Below, one piece after another: positions 40,346 through 49,256 of a stretch of 64,000 nucleotides of DNA (position 1 is its first letter; each line of letters opens with the position of its first letter). The DNA comes from Bacteroidota bacterium (lineage in GTDB: Bacteria; Bacteroidota; Bacteroidia; Bacteroidales; NBLH01), in the NCBI GenBank assembly GCA_025361565.1, contig JANYKN010000196.1, forward strand, positions 1-64,000, in the 5' to 3' direction. The notes below the pieces were generated by a model that worked only from the letters and a program-made list of their open reading frames with translations, was not told the DNA's origin and searched no databases. The translations under genes and the position numbers were made by a program.

Positions 40346-40574
40346 TTATTAACTTTTCGGACAATTTATAAATTAGATTTGTCTTTTATCTAATATGTTT
40401 TTTGATGCAATCTAAAATTGATTTTTTAAAGCTGAATCAATTTTTAGATTATTTTGTTATTTTTACATACGAACTAATTGTTGCGATTTAGGGTATAAAC
40501 CCAAAAGAAAAAAATAAAATATTCTCGAATTCAATCAGATAGATAAAAAAGATATCAAATTAAATTCAATTGAA

Positions 40575-47232: not shown

Positions 47233-47786
47233 TCAATTATTGAATTTATCCGTATCCCAATTTTGCGGATTATTGATGATAAAATTTTTTATATGCTGGT
47301 ATTCATCTTCATTGCCTATAATATGGTCATGAAAACGCTCTTGCCAGGTAAATTCTATATGATTAACTGTTGAATAGGTTTTTACCCCTGTTTTATAACC
47401 GCGAATTATGGATCCCATATTTTACGATTGTTATTGGGTTTATCAGGAAGATCGGTGATAATTGGTTCATTGTAAATAATTGGCCCACATTCCTGGCCAT
47501 CATCATCCTTGTCAATAATAACAATACCATGCATATGATTTGGCATTACAACATAAACATCTAAAACCACAAATGGAAAATGATCCGGAATTTCCTGCCA
47601 ATATTTTTTCGCAATTTCGCCAATTTCTGAATAATGCATTTCATTATTTACAATATTCCCGAAAAATATTTCTCTGTTTTTTGTGCAAATGGTAATAAAA
47701 TATGATCCATTCCAACCATAATCCCAATTTTTTAAACGGGTCGATTCTATCCTGTATTTATCTTGGAATTTATCTTTCATTCGCAT
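47233..47786 (-). pseudogene. REP-associated tyrosine transposase (RAYT, Y1/IS200-like), frameshifted
   Basis: ORF 47406-47786 has NGSYFITICTKNREIFFGNI and HxH motif PNHMHGIVI; continuation ORF 47233-47418 has GSIIRGYKTGVKTYS and IIGNEDEYQHIKNFIINNPQNW. Adding one G at the GGG run (plus strand ccc 47414-47416) restores RKIWGSIIRGYK. Confidence 0.85.
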
Positions 47787-47870: not shown

Positions 47871-47896
47871 GGAGACGCAAAATATTGCGTCACTAC
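47871..47896 (-). repeat. REP sequence 2
   Basis: Stem GACGCAA (47874-47880) / TTGCGTC (47885-47891) with GTAG head on the minus strand (ctac 47893-47896). Confidence 0.85.
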
Positions 47897-47934: not shown

Positions 47935-48194
47935 ATGGTACGAATAAAATTAGATCGTGTATCAAAAACACCTGATCCTAATCTAAACTAATTCATTCGA
48001 GGTGCAAAAAATACCTGATTGTGGTATGAACATAATTGGATTGTGGTATAAAAATACCTGATCGGGGTAAGAATAAAATTAGATCGTGGTATAAAAAATA
48101 CCTGATTGTGGTATGAACAAAATATGATCATGTTCCAAACATGCTTATTCGACGTCCTAACAAATCATGATCCTGGTATTCATTTACTCAATAG
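47935..48194. repeat. Degenerate tandem array of 21/22-bp units alternating in two types
   Basis: Consecutive segments of 22,21,21,22,22,21,22,22,22,21,22 bp from 47935, e.g. GTGGTATAAAAATACCTGATC / GGGGTAAGAATAAAATTAGATC / GTGGTATAAAAAATACCTGATT / GTGGTATGAACAAAATATGATC. Confidence 0.88.
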
Positions 48195-48371
48195 CATTAT
48201 TCACAAATAGAATAAGAATCAATGCAAAAGAACTGTCATTTATAATTACCTTCATATAGAAATAAATTATCCTTTATATTCACATCATCCGTGTTAATTG
48301 TACTAAGTGAGTCGAAGTATCCATGTTCTATTATTATAAAATTTTAATACCTTCGCTCGTAATCGATTAGT

Positions 48372-49256
48372 ATGAACAAAAAGATTGGTATACCAGTATA
48401 TAGTTTAGATAAGTTTCAATCGAAGAACGATAGGAGTAATTTATTCGAGGTTGAGCTTTTTGATGCAAATAGGCATTTTCAGGTTTCTTACCCTCATCGG
48501 CATGATTTTTACGAAATACTTTATCTTTCAAAAGGTTCAGGATTTCATATTATCGACAGCAATAAATATACAATCAATCCACCTTGTATTTTCTTTTTAT
48601 CACCAGGACAGGCGCATAGATTGGAACTTTCGCATGATATCGAAGGCTTTATATTCATTTTTACATCCGAATTTTATTTATTGAACCAAAAAAACAAAAA
48701 TAAGTTACTTGAATTCCCCTTCTTTTTTTCTTTGGATCAAAACAATCCACCTATTTATCTAAGCAATCCAGATGATGATAATTTCATTAAAAACCTGTTT
48801 GCACGATGTACAAATGTTGTTTTAAACAATCATGTTTCATCAGATGAAATTGCACGTTCTACTTTGGATTTAATCCTGCTTACCTGCAACGATCTCTATC
48901 CCGAAGAAATGAAATCTGTGCAGAAAGGAAAAGGCCACATCCTGGTAAAAAACTTCCTTTTATTGATTGAAGAGAACTTTCATAAAAACCTTCGAATTGG
49001 TAATTATGCAAACATATTGGCCATTACCCCAAACCATTTAACCCAAATGGTGAAACGAATAACTGGAAAGTCTTCTGTTTCAATACTCCATGAAAAAACG
49101 GTTGTTGAAATAAAACGATTATTGATTCACACCGATCTAAGCATAGCTGAAATTTCAGATTATATGAATTTCCCGGATCAATCTTATTTTACAAAATATT
49201 TCAAAAAGCTGAGCAATCTTTCACCAATAGCTTATCGTAAGCTTCATGTAAAATGA
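48372..49256 (+). CDS. AraC-family transcriptional regulator with N-terminal cupin
   Basis: SYPHRHDFYEILYLSKGSGFHIID cupin; NYANILAITPNHLTQMVKRITGKSSVSILHEKTVVEIKRLLIHTDLSIAEISDYMNFPDQSYFTKYFKKLSNLSPIAYRK. Confidence 0.93.
   Translation: MNKKIGIPVYSLDKFQSKNDRSNLFEVELFDANRHFQVSYPHRHDFYEILYLSKGSGFHIIDSNKYTINPPCIFFLSPGQAHRLELSHDIEGFIFIFTSEFYLLNQKNKNKLLEFPFFFSLDQNNPPIYLSNPDDDNFIKNLFARCTNVVLNNHVSSDEIARSTLDLILLTCNDLYPEEMKSVQKGKGHILVKNFLLLIEENFHKNLRIGNYANILAITPNHLTQMVKRITGKSSVSILHEKTVVEIKRLLIHTDLSIAEISDYMNFPDQSYFTKYFKKLSNLSPIAYRKLHVK

Follow-up and report, generated by a model that had tools for sequence, protein, structure and literature searches.

What is the run of twelve short, degenerate direct repeats that lies between a REP-like palindrome and the gene for an AraC-family regulator, and why are its units so uniform in length? 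The run occupies positions 47936–48194 of the 64,000-nucleotide stretch of DNA that was analyzed (the window); no strand is assigned to it or to the other repeat features described below. As the preliminary description claimed, the run is divided here into consecutive head-to-tail units (22, 21, 21, 22, 22, 21, 22, 22, 22, 21, 22 and 21 bp), and unit cutting, TRF and autocorrelation agree on this. TRF reports periods of 43 (score 246), 22 and 87 across 47936–48179, with scores of 246–266; the maximum score in a 1.5-Mb Markov control with the genome's own dinucleotide make-up was 129. The autocorrelation at lag 43 is 0.54 vs a maximum of 0.43 across all lags in 2000 shuffles; it is followed by peaks at lags 87, 65 and 22, and all four peaks exceed every shuffle. 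The described alternation of A and B units, that is, a 43-bp super-period, is real in units 4–9 but blurred at both ends of the array. The units have drifted in sequence while retaining their length, also as described, and they adjoin without spacers, so the array is not a CRISPR; an intergenic, spacer-free array of 21/22-bp units has the form of a BrickBuilt-type minisatellite.

The array is preceded by the REP-like palindrome (GAGACGCAAAATATTGCGTCAC; 47872–47893) and by a 126-aa ORF on the minus strand (47406–47786) that has no Pfam match, is shorter than its relatives in the same genome, and is presumably RAYT-like from its MPNHMHGI motif. The AraC-family gene (48372–49256, plus strand; PF12833 and PF02311), for which no close homologue was found in the genus, begins 178 bp downstream of the array. 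A second genomic copy, on contig C132, clarifies how the array is related to these neighbors. Window positions 47958–48261 align with this copy over 304 positions at 88% identity, with just one gap, of 1 bp; the homologous element therefore extends beyond the array to about 48261 by a non-periodic tail of ~67 bp (48195–48261) that is common to both copies and aligns without gaps up to ...ATAGAA. The C132 copy has a longer array (about 14 units), with a perfect 16-bp inverted repeat shortly ahead of it, and is located between convergent genes that are unrelated to the neighbors in the window, with no adjoining AraC gene; the left edge of the window copy is cut at the end of the REP/RAYT-like DNA. 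Because the second copy includes the tail and has unrelated neighbors, the array was copied together with its tail, and its proximity to the AraC and RAYT-like genes in the window is circumstance.

The C132 copy also lacks an adjoining REP core or RAYT gene, and just three of the 13 first-survey arrays have a REP core within 500 bp. The link to a REPtron that was drawn initially is thus not upheld, and we rejected the REPtron as part of the element; for most arrays, REP proximity is incidental. Separately, a small contig of the genome (C42, 3355 bp; locus L093) contains two RAYT-like genes, and C169 contains 30-bp tandem repeats of the REP palindrome (AGACGCAAAATTTTGCGTCT...; 97566–97647, 102237–102348 and 110393–110472; loci L175 and L176) within long open frames of 756–1243 codons.

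The element of array and tail has two copies in this genome. No terminal inverted repeats that would link its ends were found, nor was a transposase. The exact array pattern has no match in the genome contigs, viral contigs or plasmid collection, and none of the 40 relatives that were searched (6 in the same genus) has such an array; a small sample (279 kb) of a genome from the same genus (G001) contained none.

Similar arrays, on whose presence elsewhere in the genome the preliminary description depended, do occur. In about 2.04 Mb of the 6.76-Mb genome, we identified 13 array families of mutually unrelated sequence, nearly all intergenic, counting arrays with at least three units and excluding microsatellites, arrays within clear long genes and, as different in kind, one 16-bp REP tandem and one low-complexity AT-rich 63-bp case (the array at C169:120580 was entered as a locus beside a terminator match, outside the survey scan). 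Their periods are 40, 21, 43, 41, 42, 43, 42, 42, 43, 42, 42, 42 and 42, so all of the families fall at 40–44 or 21–22 bp; the periods of coding repeats in the same genome are broadly spread, from 30 to 273. The last 400 kb were a test set, scanned once the pattern had been noticed, and yielded two clear arrays with periods of 40 (a known family) and 42 (a new one). The window itself contains a second array of the class (1549–1748; TRF, period 42), unrelated in sequence to the first.

At least five families are dispersed in 2–4 copies each with 75–88% identity, some with a common leader or tail (e.g., the C149:961/C109 family, in which both are common to the copies). Homogeneity varies widely: the C74 array is nearly homogeneous (93%), whereas C132:40061 is very degenerate, with about 20 units that remain in register while matching approximately half of the consensus. 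Some arrays reach the end of their contig (C186:1). In two families (C149:77458 and C109:125485) the unit length is divisible by 3 and open frames run through the array. No motif or dyad is conserved across families, and no gene context is common to the arrays; what unites the class is repeat length (about 21 or 42 bp), not sequence. A single ancestor for all families found little support, with mostly weak scores in comparisons of the unit consensuses; the best pair, with a high score, joins C149:177574 to a 21-bp array (L185) of an order-level relative, but the L185 array had no counterpart elsewhere among 247 genomes of the order. Arrays of 21/42 bp were observed in other Bacteroidales at L185:52–141 (genome G016) and at L097:13132–13391 (Prolixibacteraceae UBA12447), the latter possibly coding (an open frame of 186 codons). 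Terminator-like hairpins adjoin several arrays (L009:9613–9645, C132:~40525–40555, C149:~77800–77830 and L155:~1500–1535).

The copies of these arrays differ mainly by substitution. Using one pair per family, we counted 5 gap openings (one of them a whole 21-bp unit) and 221 substitutions between array copies; for 41 pairs of other dispersed noncoding repeats taken from the same sequence, under identical BLAST scoring, the counts were 95 gap openings and 942 substitutions (bootstrap of the control ratio, 0.075–0.134). Relative to this control, which is small and may itself be constrained or indel-prone, the arrays have a 4-fold deficit of gap openings per substitution (Fisher p = 8e-5). TRF is biased to low-indel arrays; local BLAST breaks off at large indels, equally in arrays and controls. 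Together with the shared repeat length, the deficit suggests that it is the spacing that is being preserved, which is compatible with the selection on spacing that had been proposed. The accompanying proposal of "two helical turns" is only roughly right: periods differ from family to family (40, 41, 42, 43 or 44) while remaining constant within each one, so that the spacing is not fixed at exactly 4 × 10.5 bp, and, given the 40–44 range between families, they do not all share an exact helical phase.

We consider it somewhat probable that a small dispersed intergenic element carries this array as its internal minisatellite, and that the element is one of a BrickBuilt-like class that shares a repeat length and in which spacing is constrained. 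A short intergenic stretch would first expand in tandem, copies of the array with some flank would then arise at further sites, and point mutation would cause the units to diverge with their length retained. From the indel deficit we infer purifying selection on spacing; by a further step, successive units would perhaps align along the same side of the helix, allowing multivalent binding by an abundant DNA-binding (nucleoid) protein. The 88% second copy beside unrelated genes, the 13 unrelated families, their dispersal, the indel deficit and the repeat lengths known from Porphyromonas gingivalis favor this explanation; against it are the lack of a cross-family motif or dyad, the 40–44 range of periods, the few controls, the low-indel bias of TRF, the lack of terminal inverted repeats, and the lack of an orthologous array in the relatives searched.

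Intergenic minisatellites of bacteria generally serve as typing markers and are taken to be neutral. There is an appreciable chance, short of even, that these arrays are functionless: replication slippage or short-homology duplication in this lineage would favor steps of ~42 bp, and the constancy of length would be inherited from the expansion. The expansion of minisatellites is familiar from bacteria, the range of homogeneity from C74 to C132:40061 is what birth and decay would give, and both a conserved motif and a common gene context are missing. However, neutral decay would not be expected to leave diverged copies with a 4-fold shortage of indels, nor to keep units in register once their identity has fallen to about 50%, and no slippage mechanism is known with a preference for ~42 bp. 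The occurrence of many unrelated families with one period and an indel deficit in one genome therefore makes unit spacing a candidate for a selected trait. The constrained dispersed element is our preferred reading; it is unlikely, in our judgment, that the genome as a whole contains ~50 unrelated intergenic arrays (an extrapolation) in which only the spacing, two and four helical turns, is selected as a sequence-independent phase code that a nucleoid protein or DNA mechanics would read.

Operators and iterons are often spaced by approximately two helical turns, and the array lies upstream of the AraC gene, so it might be an operator/promoter array for that gene or a set of plasmid-type iterons. 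Both are very improbable: the second copy has no AraC gene beside it, the array contains no match to the Bacteroidota -33/-7 promoter, no replication-initiator gene was recognized by eye among the ORFs at 42–54 kb, and the plasmid collection gave no match. Equally improbable are transcribed repeat hairpins or cruciforms, as the GGTAT-A(4/5)-ATACC palindrome in the B units and the strong dyads in some other families (C109:125485, C189:16089 and C35:108425) might indicate, since dyads are not significant in most families, the RNA of neither strand folds better than shuffled sequence (z of -0.6 and -1.5), Rfam has no match for the array, and the B-unit palindrome, unsupported as a functional part, is conserved no better than chance (unit p = 0.37), with no compensatory changes in its stem and pairing below that of shuffles. 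Elsewhere in the window, Rfam identifies a Bacteroidales small SRP RNA (RF04183; 22627–22734, minus strand).

Among known systems, CRISPRs differ in their constant repeats and unique spacers, a pattern that this array lacks. Plasmid iterons are also direct repeats spaced at roughly two helical turns, but the arrays described here are chromosomal, belong to many unrelated families, and have no recognized initiator gene nearby. REP/BIME elements with RAYT transposases are likewise intergenic repeats, and REPs are found near three of the arrays; however, the array units are mostly not palindromic, and a REP core is missing from within 500 bp of most of the surveyed arrays, the C132 copy among them. 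The closest comparison is with P. gingivalis, a member of the same order, in which intergenic tandem repeats of 22, 23 (BrickBuilt) and 41 nt (PgRS) have been described (PMC4596501). BrickBuilt is a MITE with a leader, repeats, a tail and IS5-like ends; it is a single sequence family of 19 copies, some with IS5-type terminal inverted repeats (PMC4596501). Compared by description rather than at the DNA level, both are intergenic and have degenerate, spacer-free repeats near two helical turns (23 nt in BrickBuilt), a unit number that varies between copies, a leader and tail, no fixed gene context, and frequent proximity to terminators; in contrast, the arrays here form many unrelated families with few copies each, have periods of 21–22 or 40–44, and showed no terminal inverted repeats, so we do not file them as members of BrickBuilt. 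MITE464/PgRS and the 22-nt repeats (cited in PMC4596501) are intergenic direct repeats with the same lengths as those here (41 and 22 nt); by report only, their sequences differ, and PgRS has IS5-type ends. The 22-, 23- and 41-nt repeats of P. gingivalis hint that the same pattern extends more widely across the Bacteroidales.
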